From: Diphasiastrum complanatum
Lineage: Eukaryota; Streptophyta; Lycopodiopsida; Lycopodiales; Lycopodiaceae
DNA: 64,000 bases
Direction: 5' to 3'
NCBI GenBank assembly: GCA_029204225.1
Contig: CM055113.1
Coordinates: 24,847,571-24,911,570 of the forward strand
This document shows, piece after piece, positions 1,893 through 56,290 of this stretch; positions within the stretch are counted from its first letter, which is position 1; the number at the start of each line of letters is the position of its first letter. Both the position numbers and the translations under genes were made by a program. The notes under the pieces were generated by a model, which worked only from the letters and a program-made list of their open reading frames with translations, did not search any database and had not been told where the DNA came from.

Positions 1893-4800
1893 CTCTCCCT
1901 TAAGCTCAAATGTGATAAGAGTGAAAAACAATATATTGCAGCAGCGTCTCGAGTGTCCAAAAGATGTTATGCATATCCCTGCTACCCTGTACTTGACTCA
2001 CACTCAAGCACACCGACAAACCACCAGGTTTGACTCACAAAGTATCATGCAAACACAATGCTCATACAGAGAGTCTACCATACTCTCGACCAACTGACTC
2101 GTCCCCAATCCGACTTGAACACAAGTGGACCACATGAGCGACATGGCTCAAACTGAGGAAATCCCACTGCCACCATGAGACTTACATCCTCCATCTAGCT
2201 AGGCTGACATCCTATCAGACACTTACAAGCACAGACCTGTAAAGCTGACATACATGAGCGACTGAGGCTCAACCTGAGGAAATTTTTCTACCACCATAAG
2301 ATTGCACCCTCACCAGATAAACAGCTAGTAGACAATGACAAGTCAATGAGCATAAAATGACTACTTTGTTCTTGACGTAGCAAATGCACAACCACATACA
2401 ACTCTGACTCAGATCTAAACTCTCGTGACAAGGCAACATGCAAGCCCACACACACTCATGCAAACCAACACGAATGATAAAGCGTCAAATACATGACCAA
2501 GGCCTGCCCATAAGTGGTATCCTGTCGTACCAACACATGTGCCACCTATAGATCCGCTGCTACACCACTGGTCACCAAATTAGGTCCTCAACCATGGCCT
2601 GCACCTGTACCAAGATGCTCTCACGTCCAAGCATATACATCTATCCAATAAGTCCTGAAAGTTGATCCTAATCCATTCCCCATGCTCCAAGCACAAGAGT
2701 CTACCAAGGACTCAATGAATGAAAGTACACAAACCTCACCATAGGCTATACCTGAGTAGCTCGCCCACCTCCCAGAGATACTGATGATGATCTGCCTGTC
2801 CTACATCCCATGTAGGTTCAACTTCCATGTTTGACGTTGCCAACTCTAATTTGACCAGTACATAGGCCTCCGACCAAGGAGCCTATCTCGCCAACATTGT
2901 ATCCATCATAGCGTCCAAGCCAAAGCAAATGCAAACTAGATCCACTATCATGATGAACAACTCACCCACGATCCATAGCATATCAGGTAGGATAGATCCA
3001 GAACCCTGTACCCTGTACCATCTGATCACCAAGTATCCATAACCCGCTGATAGCTCCCCAAGAATCTCCACCTGTAGTGCAACTACACTCCAACTCGATC
3101 TAACTAAAAACTGCATCCTGCTTACCAAAAGATGATGGATAGAAATAACATGTGACGCCAACCTGGAGATAGCTGTGCATATAACCATGCAGCTCCTAGT
3201 CACCATCCTGCTAGACAAGCCGAACTCAAAAGCATCACCTGCTCCACCTAGCTCCTAGCATCTGCTCGCTCTCCCTGGCTATGTGCCACCCGACACCATG
3301 CCAACGCAAGCATATCCCTGAGTTGCCGCTCATGGGATCCCGAGACTGCTGTCTCCCTGATCGTACTGAGGTATATGGCTCTAAGTGACTCCCTCTAGGC
3401 TTCCCCATGATCTCACCACCTGAGAATCTGCATCATGGAAATTCCAACACAATGTGCCAAGCCTAAACTCCTGCAAATACAGCCAACTGCATGAAAGCTA
3501 TAGATAGCTTATCCACGCCCGTGATGGTAGATGCCTCCCCATCGATGCCAATGTCCAAAACTGGCCCCCTGCTGTAATGTCAACCTGTACTCCCAAATGA
3601 GCACACCATGAAGTCCTCGCCATCAATATTCCTTGCAGTAGATCACTTGCAAAACACTCACCACAGTGTTTGCCCTCTGATCACACCCCGTGCGATCTCC
3701 ATCAGCTCTCCAACCTAGAGTTGGCTCTCAAAGTTTCACGCTTTGCCCATTTGCGTTTGCAGCTTCTTGATTCCATCATGAATCCCACCTGTAAGTCCTA
3801 TCATGCCAATGACTCAAGTCCAATATGAAATAGCTGCCCCCTAATGATCATCCCATGTCATCCTACAGTGTTATCCCTACCAGGTATCCCAATGCCATTC
3901 CTGATCACAAAGATCTAAGCATCTACCCTGTAGTGCCCACCTATATTCCCCCAAGCTAGCTCCAAGCTGCTCTGTGAATGGTTCCAAACCACTCCTTGAG
4001 AATACACTGAGCTGTAAACTCCAAAGCCACCATCAAGTCCCTCACATGATTGTGCATGCCAATATCCCTCCAAGTGAAGCTGTGAGATCTTCCATGGCCC
4101 TAACCAAATGATCTGCACCTTGCCATCACTAGAATCTGCATCCTTGATGCAATCCTGATATGGCAAATTGACTTGACTTATCCAAACTGGCAGTTGAAGT
4201 GTATCTCCTCGATGACAAACCTGATACACTGCTCCACAACTACAATGGCTTGATCAAAATTGACTTACCGACTGCAAAACCGCAAAATCATCACACTCAC
4301 CACTCACCAAGAGCATCCAAAGTGTGATTATCGACCCGTTCTTCATCCTCTGCGTGCCCCACACACAGCTCGTCCAATGCAAGTCCATTATCTTGCCCAA
4401 TGGCTTCTAACTGGCACCACCTCGCACTTCCATCACCCGTGACCACCAAAATGTGTGTACCCCCAAGCTAGCCCATATTTCCCTCCGAACGAGAAATTTC
4501 AAGCTACAGATGCGTGTGTCAATGCAGCTATCACCTGACTCGACAATGCCACTGCCGATCATCCATGTGAGAGCGTTCCCCCAAAACGCCACTTGACGTT
4601 GGTTGGTTCGAACTCCAACAGTTGAATATGATCACAACAATTTTTCACCTGTAACCGGCATTTCATGCCTACCGCTCACCTGTGATTGCTTGCACTCTCA
4701 AAATTGTCACCAATGATGAGTAGTCACGCCGCCAAACTGCACTTTCGTCGCCACAACTAGCTTTCTCCACACAATTCCACTACCATTCGCCCCCATACTG

Positions 4801-5829
4801 GATTTATCACTTCCAAACACCCTGTTACCCTATCAGGAGTAAGTAATAATGATTCCCAAGCAATAATGCCTCATTGTACCGCCCTTTAGGTTTCACCAGC
4901 CCAGAATAGCCCCAAATTTGGCCCACGGTACCCAAATAGCGAATGTAGCCCATCACTAGGTCACCCGCACTCCACTCGATAGAATGGTGATGAAAACTCC
5001 CCAAAACACCTTTCTCTCTGCTCTATGACGTCGCTCTGTACGCTGACTCTGAGCAGCCAATTTCAGGGGTCATTTTGGCCCAAGGATGGCCAAAAAAGGT
5101 GCCCTCTAGCCAAAGATATTCCTCTCAAAAGATTGCCCTAGCAAAATGAACTGTTTCTTCGTTATGAAAATTTTTTATGAAGAAATCCATTTTCTAGACT
5201 TCGGGTCCCTTCAGCCCATTTTTTTTTGAAATTTTTTAAAGAAAAGCCTTCAGAAATGGCTTTCAAATCTTCGTGGGCCCTTCACCTAAAATCCAATGGT
5301 GTCTTTCAATCCAATGGTCCAGTTTGCTCTCCGAGCAAGCTATCACGACCGTTGATCCTCGATCTTTATGATCGGACGGTTCTCCCATCTTCTGCGTGCT
5401 GAAGCTTCCTCAAGCAGCCGCTACGCACTCCAACACGCTATGGACCTGGCCTATTTCACCGCGCGCGACCTGTCCGCCCACGAGCTCCTTCTTTGCCTCT
5501 CTCTCTCCAAACTGGCTATGGTAGACCCTCTCCACGGCTGCCTTGCTCCCCACAGATTTGTGTTAAATCTGCACCATGGCTGCCAACGGCCATTTACATG
5601 ATGATTTGAATTGCTAAAGCGCCCTCAAGCATGCTTTTACAACTCCATAAATAGTGTCCTATATCAAAAGAACCAAGCTTTTGCATACTGAAACCCTAGC
5701 TTTCATTTTTCAATCATAGCAATCATAGAGCAATTATCCTTCTTCTCAGTCATGGAAACTATGGTCAGCTAGGGTTTACAGACAATAAACCTTGGATTTC
5801 TCTCTGTATATGACATATTTTGGAGACCA

Positions 5830-45752: not shown

Positions 45753-47570
45753 TGAGTGCAACTCTTTGTCATCTAGAAATACATTGACAAAACCAGTTCT
45801 GCTATAAAATTTCAACAAGGGAGTCAGGCCGTTTTATTGTCTGCCACTTACTGCTCCTATACATTATTGAACAATGTAATATCTCACACCTCTAAATACT
45901 TGGCTTTGTGGACAAACCTGAGTTGCAAAGTCGCGAACCGAACTTGCCAAAATCCACTTAAGCTGACATAACATATTCAATTGGCGAAGAACAGGTATTT
46001 AATTTAGTACACATCTCTGTTGCCTATAACAACATGAAAACTTTGCTCAAGGAAAACAAGAGGCCAAGTGAAGGCATGATGCAAGTTGCCGCCTGATGTC
46101 TAAAAGGAAGAACAGCGAGTATTTTCCCAAGGGATCCAAAAACACGCCATGATTTACTTCAGCTAGGAGACTTCAGGAGAGAATGAAATCATTGAGTTTA
46201 CGTTAGTTTGCTGGGGTAATTTCCAATGACAAAATAGGATACAATTTCAAACGGGTGCAAGCATGATCATTCTTAGCATGCCTTAGGAGTGTGCGCTGAC
46301 AAGCGTGCGTTATCTAAGAAAAACTGCATGATTCATCCTTGTAAGTTGCACTTTCCACGCATGCACCCTATAGTTAACGCAAAATAAGCATGCTCAAGCG
46401 ATAGATATATATACCGACCTACAGCATTCAATTCCCTTATTCGCTATACTTTCAAGTTCATGGACATACTACCTCTCAGAGTGCATGATAAAAAGCTTCA
46501 TGCATGCCAGATTAAGTTCATTTAGCTTTTTAAGTCCAATATGGCTAAACTCACGAGTTGATTTCAGTGGCTTTGGTTGATATCTCTTTAATTATGGATC
46601 TTGTCTGAAATATGAGCTGCAAACGGACTTGAAGTCATTTGCTGGCAATTATTCTAAGGTTCTGCAACGTATTGTGAAGGATTTCATTTCAGAGTTGGGT
46701 CCCTTAAACTGGAGACAATTAAGTAGCGTTATTGATTCATTATCTTCTTGTCTAGAATATGCATGCACAGGGTTACTCTTTGATTCCACCAGACCACTAG
46801 ATTAACGTAAGGAACATGTGTTGAGTCTTCATATAGTTGCTTTTTCCATACATTCTCTTATTACCATTTCAATGTCACAAGAAGCAAAAGAAAGATCGAC
46901 ACTACTTGCAAGCTAAGCTAAGACAACTCTCAATAAAATCACTACTTGCAAGCTAAGCTAAGACTACTCTCAATAAAATCAACGCCACCATTAAAACTAC
47001 CACTATTCTTAGCAATCTAAGACTACCATCAACACTACCACTACCACGATGGAAGCATACACCATACCTCACAAAACTTAAAGAATGAAGATGCAATTGC
47101 TACTCAAATCTTAAAAGGGATACACTTCTTTTTAGGTTAAAAGAGTATGGAGTGAAGAGCACAAAGCACCAAAGAGCACCTTGCCTCTTCCTCCATCACC
47201 ATAGCTTGCTTGAAGGAAACATAGGCTAAGCATGATTTATTTGTGATAATATTTAAATCACCTTGAAAAAAATCTATTTTTTTTTTCATTTCTTATAATT
47301 TTTAACAATATTTTTTTTACAAAAAATATTATAAAAACACATCTAAAATATTGTAAACTTGACAAATCATTACAATTTTAATTTTTGGTAATAATTATCA
47401 ATGTTAAATTCTTTAAAATATTTCAAATTTTAAATTTTAAATCGTTAAGAAATAAATTATAAAATATTAAATCAATAAAAAAAAACTCAAAACACAATAC
47501 ATCAAAAAATATAAACACAATTATTCTTTAAAACGAAAGAGAATTTTTTATTCCCAAAAATCATCGATGT
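45753..47570. other. 3' flank of the coiled-coil gene and AT-rich intergenic sequence
   Basis: No gene is recognised. A 41-bp unit is duplicated in tandem at about 46899-46980 (ACTACTTGCAAGCTAAGC...CAATAAAATC). Positions 47260-47530 are very AT-rich. A sequence resembling half of the palindrome found at 51038-51510 (CATAGGCTAAGCATG) occurs once at 47220-47234. Confidence 0.5.
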
Positions 47571-47573
47571 CAT

Positions 47574-50500
47574 TTACATCTTTTTCTTTTGTTTTTTCTT
47601 GAGTAGCCACTGTACTATTTCCTCAACTACAATTACTACATTGTAATCTTGAACCAAGACATCAGCAAATTCTCCTGTGTCGCCTACTTTTCCGCTAGCA
47701 GGAGGCTGAGGTTCCTTGGACAAGGGAATTATTGTATTATCGCTGTCCAAACTCTTTCCCACCTTAGATAATTCATCTGGCAAAATTGAAAGAAATTTCA
47801 TTCTCATTTTTATAAAATCAACTAAATTAGTATCTAAATTTACTGCAACAACATGTCTGCCTTTCTGAACAGCACATGCGCTCGTAGTGCCGCTACCGCT
47901 AAATAAATCTAAAACCCAATCAGCTGGGTGAGAAAAAATATCAACTAAATGATTAATTAACTGTTGTGGCTTTTGGTAGGGACAAGCCACGGAACCCATC
48001 ATTGGATTTTTTGATTTCTTTGTCACAGTTGGATACTGGAACAAGTTTTCAAATTTGTCAGTCTGGAAGTGTTATAATGCAACATCGAGCATTTGCCATC
48101 CAAAAGATAATAACCGATGGTTATGTATTCTATTTCATTGCAAAGTCGAGCTCCTCCTGAGTTCCTGACATTGGGCTTGTATCTGACATAGAATGTTACA
48201 AGTAAAATCAGTTTAAAATTTTAATTTTAAAATAAAAAATTTAAAATAAAATTATGATTAAAAAAAAGAATTGATAATTCAGGAACTTAAGAACTTACCA
48301 CACAACATTCTCAATTCCCGCATTACATTAGTAGAGCTTTCTGTACTGATGCTGACTGTCAAGAAGAACGAAAAATAACAACTCTCCAAATTGGAGAAGT
48401 TGTGACTTCAAGAAAGCCCTACATAAAACTATGGATTTCAGTGAATTTGAAAGGAGTATCATCATTAAATCATTCCTTCATCTGAAATCCATATGGTATA
48501 TCGGCGATGCAGAGTGTATAAGGCCTTTTTCTTCAAAATTTTAAAATTTCTCTGCAATTGCCCTCCTCAACAGAGTAAAAGCATGATTGATCATCGACAC
48601 TTTTGGAAAGGTAGGTCTCTAATGGATCCTCCTCTGCAATGGTCTCACCCCCTGCCAATCTCTCTCTGTCTCTTTTTTCTGCTCTCTAAACAAAATAAAA
48701 AATGGACTCAGGGCTTCATTTCGACTGCTCAGAGGATAAAGCCTCTGGCACTCATCGAAATCTTGATTTAACCCTGTCACAAGGGCTTTTTGAACTTTCA
48801 TGAATAATTTGTGCCTGCATTTAAAATATATGATTGTTAAAAATCCAACCAAATTATGAAAATCATTTTATTAAAAAAAGTAACATGAAAATAAATATTT
48901 AAATTATGATTATTACCTCTAAAATTCTTTTTCCATTTTTGCCAAGAAAAGTTGACCATCGACAACTCTTGAAAGAACACTTATTATTAGCTTTGAAGAG
49001 CTAATCCCTTATATTCTTCCACTATGATATTCCCATTTCAGTAGGGATTGGCTTCAGAGTTTGAGTGCTCACAACTTTTTTTTTTGGACTTTGAGGCACC
49101 TGAGTAGGTTGGCCTTTTATTCGAAAAGTTTCTCACTTATCAAAAATTTTAACAACAAGGGCCCACACCTGAAATAAAATAGAAAAAATTGATCGAGAAT
49201 TTAACCAATATTAAAATTGAGTTCAAAATTTTAGTCTGATAAAAACAATTTAAAAAGATTATAACGTATATTATGACCAGAGCATTCCATGACGAGCATA
49301 GCCAAACAAATTACCTGGCCACTACGAAAAGCAAGCTGAAACAAAATTATCGTATTTAGTAAGGCTCTACGTAGGATTTTTTGAATCAAAAGACAGGCCT
49401 GTCTCTTGAGCACATAGTGCTTTCAGCTCAAGTTGATTCACATCTCCTGCTTTGGAGACGCTCATGTATTCTTTGTGAAAAAAACGAATTCTTTGTATCA
49501 CGGTCATCTTCATCCGGTAGTCCTGATCAATATTGTGGTCCCAAGCCAATAGTTTCGCTTCTTCCATTGTCAGGCTAGCAAATGCAATGGCACTCATAGT
49601 TTGAAAGCTTGGGATATGGGGATACTCTTGAGATAATTGTTTTCGAGCTTGTAAACTGTGTATCCCCCCAAGAACCAAAAAAAAGATATGAATCTAATAA
49701 AGAAAAATCAAAATTTACAACATCGTTGCATTTGTTGGGATCAACCAAAACAACAAAGGGAGTAACTATGGCCTGTGTATGATCTTTAAATTTTATTTTT
49801 AAATTATGTACATGTGTTTCATTAGGCTCTCTAACTTCCATTGGCCCGTCTCCTATTATTGGGTCTACAAGTGGCCTATCACACTGATTTATGTCTAAAA
49901 TTAAAGTTGTTTCTTTTATTTTTTTTTGTTTTATGGATATCCTCTCTTAATTTGGCAAGTTCTGAGCTGTCTTGTAATGGGCGGGTGGATGCACCAAGTA
50001 GCGACAAAGATGGTTCGGTGGTGGCTTTTTTGCTTTCAGCAGAAGGGATGGACTTATGGTGATGTGTAGCCATGGTCTTTGGGCGTGACTTAGGTCTAGT
50101 GGGCGAAGTCTCAGAAATATTATGAGATCTTTTTTTTTGGGGGATGAGGGACGGCTATGGTTTCATCCTCAACATTTTTAGAGGCCGGCTTTGTGACCTG
50201 AGCAGTGGTAGAAGCGGGCTTGCAAGGTCCAATAGATACACCTTTTGAACTCCGTAATGAATAGACCGGATCTTTTCCCTCAGCAATAGTAGCTAAAACC
50301 ATTTTTAAGTATTGTTTCATGCTCTGAACATAAACAAAAATCAACTTTAAAATATAATGACTAAAAGATTAAATCTAAAAGTTTAAATAATTTTATATTT
50401 AATAACAACTATGCTAAGCTTAAAACAAACATGATTAAAAATATATTTTATAATTACTCACCAAAGTAACTAGAGCTATATCAAAATAGGCTTTGATGGC

Positions 50501-50827
50501 CTCACCTTGACAAAATCGGATCTTTATCATAGTCTCGTTCAGAATGAAAATAGAACGAGACTTATCCATCTTCTTTACAAGTATATTCACAAAGCCTTCT
50601 TCTTGATTCTCATATGGTTGATCAGCAAGCAATCTTCCTTGAACTTTGAATTGCGAGTCTCCTCTGCCAGGCTTCTCAGAATGAATAAAAAGCTTCGAAA
50701 GCTTTGTGTTGTTGACCCCTTTGGTGAAATAGTACATGAATTTTTTCTTATCTTTTAACGGAATATCTTGAGGTTTCCACAAAATTCTAAAAGAAATCCT
50801 CAATATTTCAAAAATTATCAAAGACAA
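47574..50827 (-). pseudogene. ParB-like domain plus N4/N6 DNA methyltransferase gene, decayed, multi-exon
   Basis: Minus-strand gene with several clear splice sites. Exon A (50827-50462) is an unrecognised N-terminal domain ending in donor GTGAGT. Exon B starts at 50323 after TTCAG. It has a Pro/Ser/Lys-rich linker, then a ParB-like domain (about 49890-49375) with VREPNETHVHNLKIKF, TPFVVLVDP and GIHSLQARKQL. Smaller exons follow (49315-49335 and 48917-49168). The exon 48299-48814 holds ADIPYGF (48486-48506), which matches methyltransferase motif IV (DPPY type). The exon starting at 48182 holds VLDLFSGSGTTSA (about 47880-47915), the SAM-binding motif I. Motif IV before motif I is the beta-class order of bacterial N4-cytosine/N6-adenine methyltransferases. 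Frameshifts at homopolymer runs (for example about 49905-49920 and 49670-49690) and stops in the motif IV exon show that this copy is inactive. It diverges from the transposase-like gene at 52087. Confidence 0.72.
49375..49890 (-). other. ParB-like domain region of the methyltransferase gene
   Basis: Pieces in two frames show the ParB N-terminal pattern: a P.E.HV..L...F helix, a VVLVDP strand, then G.H...A...L (here GGIHSLQARKQL) and a helical segment with LLAWDHNIDQ. In bacteria and phages such domains bind CTP or DNA, or have nuclease activity, and are sometimes fused to DNA methyltransferases. The assignment is by motif pattern only. Confidence 0.55.
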
Positions 50828-51172
50828 TTGAAAATCCGCAAAAAAAAAAGACTTTTTAGGAAAATTTTAAAACGCTATCTTAATGAAAATGCTGAAAACT
50901 TTAATAAAACAAGCCATTTTTGTGAAAAAAATTAAAAAAACAAAACTACAAATTCAACATATTTTCTTACTAAAACATCTCAAAAGGATCACTTTTCTGA
51001 GACAAAGCGTTATAAAACAAGAAAATACAAGTAGCGACCTATGCTAAGCATAGGTTGTGGTCGAGTCCTTACTAACAACTTATGCTTAGCATAGGACGGA
51101 GGCGAGATTCTTCAATTCTAACCTCCTTTTGACCTCTGTTGAGCATAGCTTTCATCTCTGGTCTTGTTCCAA

Positions 51173-51313
51173 CCTATGCTCAGCATAGGTTAGCAAGCAA
51201 ATTGCGAAGACATCCTATGCTCAACATAGGTCGTTACTCGCGCGCTCTTGTCCAACCTATGTTGAGCATAGGATGTCTTCGCTATTTGCTTGCTAACCTA
51301 TGCTAAGCATAGG
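51173..51313. repeat. 59-bp near-perfect inverted repeat inside the palindrome array
   Basis: Left arm 51173-51231 and right arm 51255-51313 are reverse complements with two mismatches, separated by 23 bp. Each arm contains two of the 17-bp palindromes and the spacer TTAGCAAGCAAATNGCGAAGAC. The pairing extends more loosely outward to about 51038 and 51384. Confidence 0.9.
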
Positions 51314-51792
51314 CTGAAAGAGGAATCCTATGTTGAGCATAGGATATTACTAAGGACCCGAGCACAACCTATGCTCACAATAGGTTAAAGGAGAGGACTG
51401 GTGCAGGCACCTATGCTGAGCATACGTTACCCATGTTGCAAGAAGATGAATACAAATTAAAATATGAATATTTTTTAATGCAATAATTTATTACCCATGC
51501 TAAGCATAGAGCAAAGCTAGAAAATGACAATAATCTTACCGTCAAGAAATCTGGAAGCAAGAACGTATGCGAAATCTTATAGAAAGCTGTAACTTGGTCA
51601 TAGCTATTGCTCTGGCAGCATGTGGGCTTTTGAATTCACAAATGAGGTGAGTTATGCTTGGACTATGGTCCTAAAATAATTTTTTTTCCGAAACCCCCAT
51701 CTCACGCCAGTCCTCCAGCTTGCTTCGGGACCAAGTTGCCGTGACTCACCTCACCCCACGCCGACCTCGAGTATTAGCCCGGACAGTCCAAA

Positions 51793-51834
51793 CCTAACCC
51801 TAGCCCTAACTCTAAACCTAACCCTAACTCTAAG
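51793..51834 (+). repeat. Short telomere-like CCCTAA/CTCTAAA tract
   Basis: ACCTAACCCTAGCCCTAACT and similar units repeat seven times in about 42 bp, between the palindrome array and the rightward gene. This could be an interstitial telomere-like patch or promoter telo-boxes. Confidence 0.6.
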
Positions 51835-52086
51835 AATGCTGCCAAACAGTATTTAAGTAATGGTAGCCACCGAAAATTTTATTAACCAGTTACTTTTTAG
51901 GCTTGTTGCTCATTTGCATTTAGTTGGTTTTTCTGTGTATGTCTATTGAGGTTCGCATAGGTTTTTATTTGTTCTATGACCAGCATAGGTTGCAGTTATG
52001 TTTGAGGAGCACATTGCGGTGTTAACTATTTGAATGGTTCTATGCTTAGCATAAGTACGTAGTTAATTTTTTCTTTTGAGGTTACG

Positions 52087-55000
52087 ATGTCAAGTAGTTC
52101 TACCTCTTCTATTCCAGTAGTTGTAACTCAATATGTTGCAACAAGTGCAACATCTTCATTTGACATTCCCAATGAAAGCTTTTTTCATAAAACCACTCCT
52201 AAATCTGAACATATTTTGGTAAACGATGTGGCATCGTCATCATTTACCTGTTCATCATCTGAAATTCCTCAAGCAAGTACTTTTCAAGAAATGACAACTG
52301 TAACTCAGCTTGTATCTAATCTTTCGACCTCGTCCTCCTCTTCAGATACAGGCTCAACACAACTAGAACATTGTTTTTTTGAACAAGTTGAATCATTGAG
52401 TGATGAGTCAAAAGCTTCAATTCACTCACTTACTGATTCTAGTAAATCAATAGATCCACATAAGTCTGTTGATCTGCGACGTTCAAGCTTTTCTCATGTT
52501 CGTAGGAGACCTTCTCAAAGTGATGTTCGTCGTGTTAAATCTAAAAGAGCTATATTCGTTGAAAATTTAGAGCCTTCTGAGGGTCCTAAACATCTTGGGG
52601 TTGGAGTCAGAATTCCCAGTCATGAAATTTCAACACCTTCTCAACCAGTTCAAGCACCTACTAGTGTCACAGGTTCAATTTATAGATCAGACTCCAAACA
52701 AAAAGAAAAATACAAGAGAGACTTGAGATCTTCATTTGATTTAACGAATCGTCAAAAATAGTTGATTACAAAATCTGAGATTCGAAAGGTACGGAATATT
52801 ATTTGCTACTCATCCTATTGTTTGCAAAAGCTGAGTATCAGAGAAATTGAAGAATTAAGATCAAATTTTTTTTTACGAAGTAAGGATGAGAGAAATTACT
52901 ATTTGTGTGCAACAGTGAGGCCGGACAAAAATTCATTTTCGTATTTTTTAAATGCTTTGGAGGTTTGTCGCAAAGCTTACAAAGCAGTTCACACAATCGA
53001 AAACTCATGGCTTCAACGAATGCATCCACGACTTTAGAAAGACCCAACATTACGGGGATCCTTACAAGGTCAAACTGTTTCTCCAGATGCTTTAAATGCA
53101 TTTGCTTGGCTAAAGCATTTCATAGATGTGCACGAAAAAATTGCCTAATTCCTTATATTTTCACTTGCCGGATAATTTTACAAAATTAGAAATATTTTTG
53201 ATGTACAAAGAGTTTGCAAAAACAAAAAATGTTCCCTATTTGAGTTACTTGTATTTTTTTAGAATTTGGAAAAGAGATTTTGGACTGGTAAAGATTTCCA
53301 AAAAATTACGAATGACAGTATGCTCCACTTGTGAGTTGTTAAAGTCTACAAAACAACTTACAAAGACCAATGACAAAAAAAATAAATATTAATCAAATTT
53401 GTCATTCATTTTAATACTTTCTGTTTTGAAAATTTTTATGTTGCAGTCTTTTTTAACACCATTATGGTATGATCTTTATTTTATTAAATAAGTGTATCAT
53501 TGTATTTTCAGTGGATGCTACAAAAGCTCTTCAACTGCACAGAAATCAACAAACAGATGAAAGACAAAAGTTGGCCAAGCATCGAAAGAAATGTTTGGAA
53601 TGTCCACAAAAATATTTGGGGCTTGTTATTGATGGCATGGAACAAGGCAAATTTTATTCAAGTTCATCTCGTTGGAGCACTTGTGTTTAATGACACTTTG
53701 GAGTCCAAGGTCTTTTTTATCTATCCCAATGTTCGAAATGATCCAAATTTGACGATCACCATTGTACATAAAATAATATGCAAATTTGGTGAAAATCTTC
53801 CAAAAATACTTTATTTGCAGCTTGACTACACTGCTAGGGAAAATAAAGATCAAACTGTTTGGCATACTTGTCTATGCTAGTGGAGAATTTTTTTTCAAAA
53901 AAGTAAAAATAGGATTTTTGTTGGTAGGACATACCCATGATCAAATTGATTAAATGTTTAGTTGCTTTTCTAAGAGGTTGAGACACAAGAAAACATTTTC
54001 ATTACCAGTGCTTCAAAACATTGTTGAGGAATCGTATGTGCCAAAGCCAAATGTGTCATTAATCAGACACACATGATTTTCGTGATTATGTTAACATCCA
54101 ACGAAACAGAGCAATGCATAGCTAATATTAATGATATTAGCTTTCAGCACCAGTTTAAAATCAAATGTAACGAATCAGACATTATATTATTATGGGGCAA
54201 ACTATTTTCAAATTCAGTTTCGTGGCTACCTCTTGAAGAAGTTTGATTTTTGCTTAACATTCCATCGACTCAAATCAAGCTTGCTGTGTTGTCTCCCTTG
54301 CAGTCCTTGCTAGAAGAACAAAAGGCGCAAAGAGAACATCGTGAGATTGATCCATTTGCCTTATTAAATTTTTTGGAATCAAGTATTCAAGTAGCTTATC
54401 ATTTTTTTGATGACTTTGATCAGCATTGGTGGATGGACTTTTTCGAAGAACAAAAATTCAGTCTGCTCAATCTCGAACATACATCAACAATTGATGAATT
54501 TCATTGGCCTCATAAATTAGGAACATCAACTACGACTGTCGAACTTTCAAATCTTCCTCGAGATAATGATTTCCTACAGCTTGTGCAAGGTGAGGAACGT
54601 GAAATTTATGTGGGCTCAAGGAAGAATAGGCAATTTGTAAAAGCTGCAAAAATGAAATGGCACGGTGATTGAATGAAATCCAAATTGGAAGCCTTGTTGC
54701 ACTTATAGCTTCAGAAAACAATGAAGGACATCCATTTTGGATTGCCAAAGTATTTGGTTTTATTCAAAATAGGAATCAAACAAAAGTACTACATGTCCAT
54801 TGGTTGCGCACCACTTCAACAAATGCCTTTTGGGAAGGTACGAACTCGAAATGTTGCAAGTAGATCCAAAGGGCAAGAGAAAGAGGTTGCGAAAAAATCA
54901 ACCAAGAGTCGACGATTTGAATCTACAGGATGTAGATGTTTTGGCATTTAATTTTGAATTAACAATGACCAATCATCTACGAAAGTCAACAATATCTATA

Positions 55001-55240
55001 TTGAAAGAACGACTTGGATTACTTGAAAAACCATCATCCTCCACTCGTGATCAACAAAGAAAAGCTGATTTACAAGGTTTTTTGTCAACATTAGATGCGG
55101 ATTCTGAGGAAGACATGCCAGTTGACTTTGATGAAGAAGATGGGTCTTCCACTTCATCAACTGAAAACGAGAGTGTTGAGAATATGTCAAGTTCTGAATT
55201 GAGAGGCATTAGTGAAAATTCCTTAGAAAATGTACTTTGA
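52087..55240 (+). pseudogene. Transposase-like gene (DUF7869-like core, BAH/Tudor-like end), decayed
   Basis: It opens with a 224-codon frame (52087-52761) rich in Ser, Thr and Val with a basic end. Further blocks follow in shifting frames: CATVRPDKN...VCRKAYKAVH (52762-53037), LPNSLYFHLPDNFTKLEIF and CSTCELLKSTK (53126-53392), then introns (donor at about 53467, acceptor at about 53511). Next come LGLVIDGMEQGKF (about 53615-53655), LPKILYLQLDYTARENKDQT (about 53800-53860) and GHTHDQID (53927-53950). The DGM, LQLDN..ENK and GHTH..ID signatures typify a eukaryotic transposon protein family (DUF7869, probably RNase H-fold). At 54690-54860, IGSLVALIASENNEGHPFWIAKV looks like a chromatin-reader (BAH/Tudor-like) module, followed by an acidic tail. 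At least five frameshifts or stops make this copy inactive. Confidence 0.7.
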
Positions 55241-56290
55241 AAAAAAGAATGTGCAAATATAATTTAAGCTATTTTGTATTTCAATGGGATTTTGAGTTTC
55301 AAAAATCATTTGTTCTCTTGAATTATTATTTCTTTTGTAATTATGATGGCTTTATGAAGTTTGCAACAAAAAACTTGTAGTTCTTTATTTAAAATATGCA
55401 TTTTTTTTGGCTTTTTTAACAAACAAAATTTAGAGATTTATTAAAAAAATCCATGATTTTGGCCTAAAACTAGGACCATTAAAAAACACCAAAAAAGATT
55501 ACTCTTTTTCAAGTCAAAGTCCCGAAACAAATGTCATCGTGTTGCTATGGAAAGAGCACACAAGGTAGAAGTTAATCACCACACAAAGAGAGATAATCAT
55601 GATCCAAATACCAAATCTTGCATTTGGAAAACGTAGATGAAAATAGAAAGGGAGGGGCTTCTTTTATAACAAACTAACTCTCTTTAGTGGCTAGGCACCA
55701 TATGATTGGCTTGTCTTGAGTCTTAAGCTAAGATTACATTTGGATTAGCCTAGCATATGGTTTTTGTTTTAGTCTAATCTAAATATTATACTTCAGTAAG
55801 TTTCACTATTTTGTCTGAAAGAAGTCACGACTAACTCTTTTCTAATGCTCACAACTTATATTCATAGAATGCTGGTCTTGGGCTTATTAATCGGCTTTTA
55901 ATATGAACAAATATATTCCCATAGAATATGTTGGGAATATGAGAATCTCTTGACATTCTCCCACTATTGAAGTGGTGCAAGTCCCATGGCACCATCATGT
56001 TGATGGCTTGTCCATGTGATGATGTTGATAAGATGAGCTATTGTGTTCTTGAAGATGGTGAATGATTGAGAGTTTTTTTTGGAAATCTAAGAAAGTGTGT
56101 GGATAACCTTTCTTTCATGTAAAACTTGGCACTTTTCTAAAAAACAACTGTCATTATTTGTCCCCTTTGATATTGATGTATTTTGGGACTATATCGTAGA
56201 AAACTATGATTTGAGGTGATAATGAAGTGGAGAAGAAGTTGAGATGATGTGGTGAATGGCATGAAGAGTTGTTGGCAATTAAAAAATGGA
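55241..56290. other. AT-rich sequence, nothing recognised
   Basis: Right flank of the transposase-like gene. No inverted repeat matching the left flank (47250-47570) was found by eye, so the outer ends of the DNA element are undefined. Confidence 0.5.

Follow-up and report, generated by a model that had tools for sequence, protein, structure and literature searches.

A palindrome repeated between two genes

The stretch of Diphasiastrum complanatum DNA analysed here (the window, 64,000 nucleotides in all) raises the question of why a 17-bp palindrome, CCTATGCTNAGCATAGG, should be repeated eleven times within 473 bp between two divergent and decayed genes. This arrangement had been described in a first-pass annotation, together with two further copies at 51973 and 52039, and all of it holds, the matches to the two genes being spread over several frames (a sign of introns or of damage). 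With up to three mismatches allowed, the window contains 13 sites, every one of them within 51038-52055 and none in the rest of the 64 kb, against an expectation of 0.24 in dinucleotide shuffles, and not one of 100 shuffles reaches 13. The sites are:

51038..51510, no strand: palindrome array, 11 sites of CCTATGCTNAGCATAGG, from the motif scan and found at the same place in other copies of the element described below
51973..51989, no strand: outlying site with three mismatches, upstream of the transposase gene
52039..52055, no strand: outlying site with two mismatches, ending 31 bp before the transposase ATG at 52087

Within the array the sites start at 51038, 51079, 51133, 51173, 51214, 51256, 51297, 51327, 51368, 51410 and 51494, and three of the eleven are perfect. 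The spacing given earlier, 40-42 bp and once 84 bp, is indeed there, but a 54 and a 30 had been overlooked, the whole series of start-to-start distances being 41, 54, 40, 41, 42, 41, 30, 41, 42 and 84 bp. Similarly, the description of the spacers as mostly unrelated fits six of the ten, which are not above shuffle level, but not the other four, which make two inverted pairs; a 70-nt inverted repeat (91%) also runs across the middle of the array. Between the array and the transposase start, at 51787-51833, lies a degenerate CCCTAA-like (telomere-type) short repeat. A search against Rfam gave no match at gathering scores, and a search for tRNAs found none.

The element that carries the array

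The array is real, clustered and borne by a mobile element, a DNA transposon whose recognisable parts in the window are the following:

about 47237-55543, plus strand: the transposon copy, from blastn to L016-L024 and comparison of ends, with its right end present
47658..48053, minus strand: C-terminal part of a predicted N6/N4 DNA methyltransferase with the FSGSGTT motif (PF01555, E 2.6e-14; tblastn of P0058)
48344..48577, minus strand: middle part of the methyltransferase, the DIPYEF motif being read in copy L021 (tblastn of P0058)
48679..48687, no strand: gap preceding the middle part of the methyltransferase, about 250 bp being absent here from the window copy (comparison with copies)
49277..49943, minus strand: conserved region preceding the methyltransferase domain, made up of two pieces that overlap and are in different frames (tblastn of P0061)
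50438..50866, minus strand: N-terminal open frame of the methyltransferase gene, ending 171 bp before the first palindrome
52087..52758, plus strand: N-terminal open frame of the transposase gene, Ser-rich (open frame and tblastn)
53488..53950, plus strand: DUF7869 domain split over two frames, the RNase-H-like core of the transposase (PF25273, E 3e-14 and 3.8e-6; fold of the relative P0003)
54226..55377, plus strand: C-terminal part of the transposase gene, matched in tblastn by an L021 frame and by P0003
55526..55543, minus strand: right terminal inverted repeat, reading inward AACACGATGAC..., with the left counterpart AACATGATGAC in L016 and L024

Both ends of the copies of this element carry short terminal inverted repeats, AACAYGATGAC. 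The window copy is without its left end, about 0.5 kb being missing up to the terminal inverted repeat seen in L016, L024 and L021, and the L016 left end was looked for in the window and not found. A target-site duplication is possible in L016 (4 bp, TATT) and none is clear in L021. The roughly 250 bp missing from the window copy bear further palindromes in L016, L020 and L021. No copy with two intact genes was noticed among those viewed, unsystematically.

By its motifs, a DPPY-like DIPYEF ahead of an FxGxG (FSGSGTT), and its match to PF01555, the divergent gene is a predicted beta-class N6/N4 DNA methyltransferase, and RsrI and CcrM are the nearest solved structures to the methyltransferase piece. 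Its relatives P0058 (Gb_37443) and P0059 (Gb_03516), whose Gb_ prefix we take to stand for Ginkgo, carry PF01555 (E 7.6e-18 in P0058) and match along the gene, whilst two metagenome proteins, P0060 and P0061, match the region that precedes the methyltransferase domain; all four were found with a chimeric query, on which the tblastn matches of P0058 and P0061 to the window do not depend. Among named organisms, the closest relatives of the window proteins are in Adiantum and Riccia. To the eye, the region at 49277..49943 has some likeness to ParB, and the best Pfam match there is a weak one to DUF6551 (E 0.019 in P0058 and 0.031 in P0059). No significant profile match and no match to a PDB entry was obtained for it, and the structure model of P0061 was unusable (pLDDT 37.7), so that neither profiles, nor the PDB search, nor this model establish a ParB identity.

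As for the transposase, the fold of P0003 places integrases and mariner-type transposases first among the VIA-align matches listed, a list in which the lack of other superfamilies does not count against them. With Foldseek the first matches are Argonaute, a herpesvirus terminase nuclease and UvrC, with unrelated ones (lactonase, DNMT1) mixed in, Sleeping Beauty coming 35th and Mos1 40th. A kinship with Sola-type transposons is conceivable. Methyltransferase and transposase matches lie within 20 kb of each other in three cases against 0.5 expected, two of them divergent, a weak count because the scoring covered 150 of 1605 and 150 of 2953 candidates. Pfam scans of both genes reveal no recognised DNA-binding domain.

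Occurrence across the genome

As support, the first-pass annotation had named clusters confined to copies of this element, and it had proposed a test for co-occurrence with intact methyltransferase or transposase genes. Across the genome the palindrome is clustered in copies of a mobile element with both kinds of gene. There are 10,282 places with up to two mismatches to CCTATGCTNAGCATAGG in the 1.74-Gb assembly, against 47 for the reversed (uncomplemented) control, and 858 pairs of exact 15-bp cores lying 0-30 bp apart, against none for the control. Of the first 50 pairs in the list, 40 have starts 39-42 bp apart, six are at 30, two at 45, one at 26 and one at 28. Close pairs of palindromes were also searched for in viral and prokaryote collections, with none found in either.

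Among the matches listed, which extend over the initial 22.8 Mb of contig 1, the exact 17-mer occurs in 11 places (L016-L026), each with 5-24 sites per 9.9-kb stretch; these places were chosen by the motif, so that its presence in them is no test. The window element is matched by blastn in eight of the 11, the other three being L022, L025 and L026. Of these, L026 does match L029, a relative whose transposase is of the same type. The pairs listed add clusters of weaker sites from the same range of contig 1 (e.g., L035 and L036), with L035 having an array and no element gene found within its 5 kb.

Some of these places have other contents that deserve mention. In L022, some 2 kb away from the palindrome cluster, a plus-strand open frame at 838-1965 combines a histone fold (PF00125, E 1.8e-22) with a long tail unrelated to it. 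Two neighbouring minus-strand open frames at 4125-5379 stand beside this cluster without a Pfam match, and tblastn of them against the window and L016-L034 gives no match except L022 itself. In L026, a carotenoid cleavage dioxygenase-type gene (PF03055; 866-2954, plus strand) lies upstream of a palindrome array with a 28-bp period, and in L025 (4320-5250) the palindromes are contained in a larger block, of which there are about four repeats, with retrotransposon pieces nearby.

Palindromes avoid protein-matched sequence

Taking the window copy together with 12 further copies or relatives, in which 51% of the bases are matched by proteins, no site with up to two mismatches lies in the 31,930 protein-matched bases and 113 lie in the 30,566 others (binomial 8e-36), coding sequence without a protein match being counted among the latter. 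The palindromes are found between the genes, before the transposase start and, in L016, L020, L021 and L031, within a putative intron of the methyltransferase gene. In L037 the corresponding stretch has five palindromes at intervals of exactly 45 bp, which lie in a 237-codon open frame, so that translation is possible there. No sites occur within 1.7 kb of either end of L021 and L016, which speaks against the palindromes being motifs for end binding by the transposase.

Variation and symmetry

The array is probably under constraint. Pairwise divergence among ten window-family arrays is 0.095 in the palindromes, 0.343 at their central base, 0.227 in the spacers and 0.283 in the flanks (0.091 in palindromes and 0.211 in spacers when CpGs are left out), from an alignment in which the palindromes served as anchors, to their advantage, and with the central base and the spacers supplying much of the contrast. 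Conservation is likewise loose at the C/G pair second from the centre (0.30 and 0.24), and between the four closest copies the contrast is small, i.e., 0.060 in palindromes and 0.093 in spacers.

The two halves of the palindrome seem to vary on their own. In 131 window-family sites the same variant on both sides is found at none of the eight half-site positions, with 2.5 expected at the first C, and as these sites were taken with up to four mismatches, double changes are somewhat under-counted. Perfect dyads are slightly above independence in this family (48 against 41.2, p 0.03), and in the 28-bp group (44 sites) one position covaries across the two sides (10 against 3.4 expected). Independent half-sites around a free centre are what would be expected of a dimeric protein bound to duplex DNA, and the pattern of variation supports the dimer-type palindrome of the first-pass annotation.

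Spacing and the helix

The period of the window array recurs in other copies, where spacings of 40-42, 54 and 84 bp are again seen, including in L042 and L044, two loci picked up by their transposase domain without use of the motif; relatives, however, run at 28 or 45 bp. It had been suggested that the sites would align bound dimers on one face of the DNA, and in the window family 71 of 98 spacings do fall within 1.5 bp of whole 10.5-bp turns, against 28 expected, these spacings being mostly inherited copies of a few values (40-42 and 84) and the 54 and the 30 being out of phase. Phase coherence of whole arrays ranges from 0.16 to 0.87, and in the relatives with a 28-bp period 6 of 29 spacings are in phase, with 8.3 expected. 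Since relatives keep the palindrome at a 28-bp period (in L029, L026 and L038) or a 45-bp period (in L037), helical phasing is not general, and as a strict rule it is ruled out by these arrays and by the out-of-phase spacings. The L035 array, which has no blastn match (E 1e-8, more than 90 bases) to other loci, has spacings of 42, 41 and 42 bp, a hint that about 41 bp is favoured, even if 28 and 45 bp also occur.

Arrays of other DUF7869 loci

Upstream of DUF7869 matches, 22 stretches were picked without regard to the motif (8 and 14; L033 is partly masked). At least three sites are present in four of them (L029, L030, L042 and L044), one or two in another four (L031, L041, L045 and L047) and none in 14. 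All eight site-bearing stretches are among the 12 of type A, with 0.007 sites expected per 1.6 kb in shuffles. Sites are absent from the ten stretches of type B, a class to which four were assigned by sequence and six solely by the start of the profile match. An array of another kind, of the heptamer AAGGGYY, is present in five of these ten (L027, L032, L048, L051 and L053), and L040, of type A, has at 955-1601 an array of AATGACTCGAATTTTTCC with an 18-bp period, upstream of its DUF7869 gene. A crude array score (an 8-mer at least four times in 300 bp) is reached by 11 of 21 DUF7869 stretches (L033 left out) against 6 of 53 controls, same-family loci not being independent of each other. To judge by these sequences, different DUF7869 families seem to keep different arrays at similar positions.

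What the array may be for

The interpretation we favour, with a probability of about 0.55, is that the array consists of operators for a dimeric and probably element-encoded protein, which would control expression or counteract silencing. Each 17-bp palindrome, with its free central base, would be an operator for a homodimeric DNA-binding protein. The presence of many operators at the shared promoter region and in the apparent methyltransferase intron would allow dense loading and higher occupancy, and the loaded protein would then control both genes and probably work against the copy's silencing, in the manner of VANC in VANDAL and TnpA in Spm. We infer that the element itself probably encodes the binder, with the product of the methyltransferase gene as the leading candidate.

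Two other explanations are unlikely to about the same degree. The array could be mainly a substrate of the element's methyltransferase, which would methylate adenine (or N4 of cytosine) in it, the marked copies being read as active or protected. The usual sites of DNA methyltransferases are far shorter than 17 bp, which counts against such a role. In its favour, the methyltransferase gene starts beside the array and has more sites within its span, RsrI and CcrM are the nearest solved relatives of its product, and 6mA is described as accompanying permissive chromatin in several eukaryotes (PMC12695648). Alternatively, a neutral minisatellite may have arisen from a palindrome-prone sequence by slippage and hairpin-mediated inverted duplication, and be carried by the element as a passive passenger. 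The inverted duplications within the array are what such a process would leave, as are the different array lengths among copies, the short arrays elsewhere in the genome (the 6 of 53 controls scoring at least 4 on the 8-mer count) and the small palindrome-spacer contrast between the closest copies. Against this, one and the same palindrome persists among other spacers and at other periods, the palindromes are less diverged than the spacers whilst their centre is free, and none of the 113 sites is in protein-matched DNA, although a satellite, too, tends to stay outside genes.

More doubtful is the use by the element of sites for a host transcription factor, for the sake of its own expression. 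A promoter-like position and a palindromic shape would suit this, as would the sharing of sites by several families, but all 11 exact-match places are clusters (among the matches listed, from one contig and for exact sites only, a coverage that lone or weak host sites could escape) and arrays differ among DUF7869 families. Equally unlikely is a more elaborate scenario, in which a ParB-like/adenine-methyltransferase protein would load on the array as bacterial ParB does on parS, spread from there over the element and write adenine methylation, so that the transposon would mark its copies as active chromatin with a DNA mark of bacterial type; related families would have kept their systems private by altering the palindrome or the period. 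Least probable are RNA hairpins or cruciforms, with strand structure mattering for a small RNA source or a replication origin, since the perfect palindromes, the larger inverted repeats and the covarying position of the 28-bp group (explainable by copying of two unit classes) are met by the lack of same-variant pairs at all eight half-site positions of the window family, where selection of this kind is unsupported.

Comparison with known systems

Operators for a protein of the element would have parallels in plants. The domain of the VANC protein of VANDAL elements is DUF1985, and Pfam scans of the frames of our element detect neither VANC nor a MULE/MURA-type transposase, with the proviso that broken frames could hide small pieces. 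The VANDAL elements of Arabidopsis are described as having VANC anti-silencing proteins and family-specific short motifs (PMC5735166, PMC10398659). What the two have in common, as far as those accounts go, are fast-changing arrays of family-specific short motifs in intergenic, intronic and other non-coding parts, a further gene, and related families with other motifs; the location of the arrays in non-coding regions of the element is found here too, with the open frame of L037 as the exception. They differ in the motif, as the one given there for VANC21 is YAGTATTAY whilst ours is a true 17-bp palindrome, and in the genes, VANDAL having a MuDR transposase and VANC where this element has DUF7869 and a DNA methyltransferase.

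In the Spm/En of maize, TnpA is linked with demethylation and activation, and a short motif is repeated. Spm with its TnpA is itself named as a comparable system in one of the accounts of VANDAL (PMC10398659), and a 12-bp subterminal repeat is described for En-1 (PMC2613891). On the side of Spm, the likeness consists of an element protein tied to activation and a repeated short motif, and on ours of the repeated motif. The Spm repeats, however, are subterminal, whereas here the sites are at least 1.7 kb from either end (in L021 and L016), and CACTA ends are absent, the element ending in AACAYGATGAC.

DNA-modifying enzymes are known from other mobile elements. There are DIRS retrotransposons with Dam-like adenine methyltransferases and other retrotransposons with cytosine methyltransferases (PMC5890265); like our element they have a DNA methyltransferase of their own, but they are retrotransposons, and neither DUF7869 nor a palindrome array is part of their description there. 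Fungal DNA transposons with a TET/JBP dioxygenase, thought to counter silencing (PMC12730594), share with it the combination of a DNA transposon and a DNA-modification enzyme, but the enzyme and the host kingdom are different and no such array is part of their description. The combination of a DUF7869 transposon, a methyltransferase and a palindrome array was not found in the titles and abstracts of the open-licence literature searched, nor was DUF7869 by name in that literature.

The array points to another case of control through motif arrays in plant DNA transposons, this time with a bacterial-type DNA methyltransferase. If a protein of the element binds it, sequence-private anti-silencing would become testable as a general strategy, and so would the contested possibility of a mobile element writing 6mA/4mC on land-plant DNA. 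Judged by its sequence, the element resembles VANDAL and Spm in principle and, by its genes, is a member of neither family.
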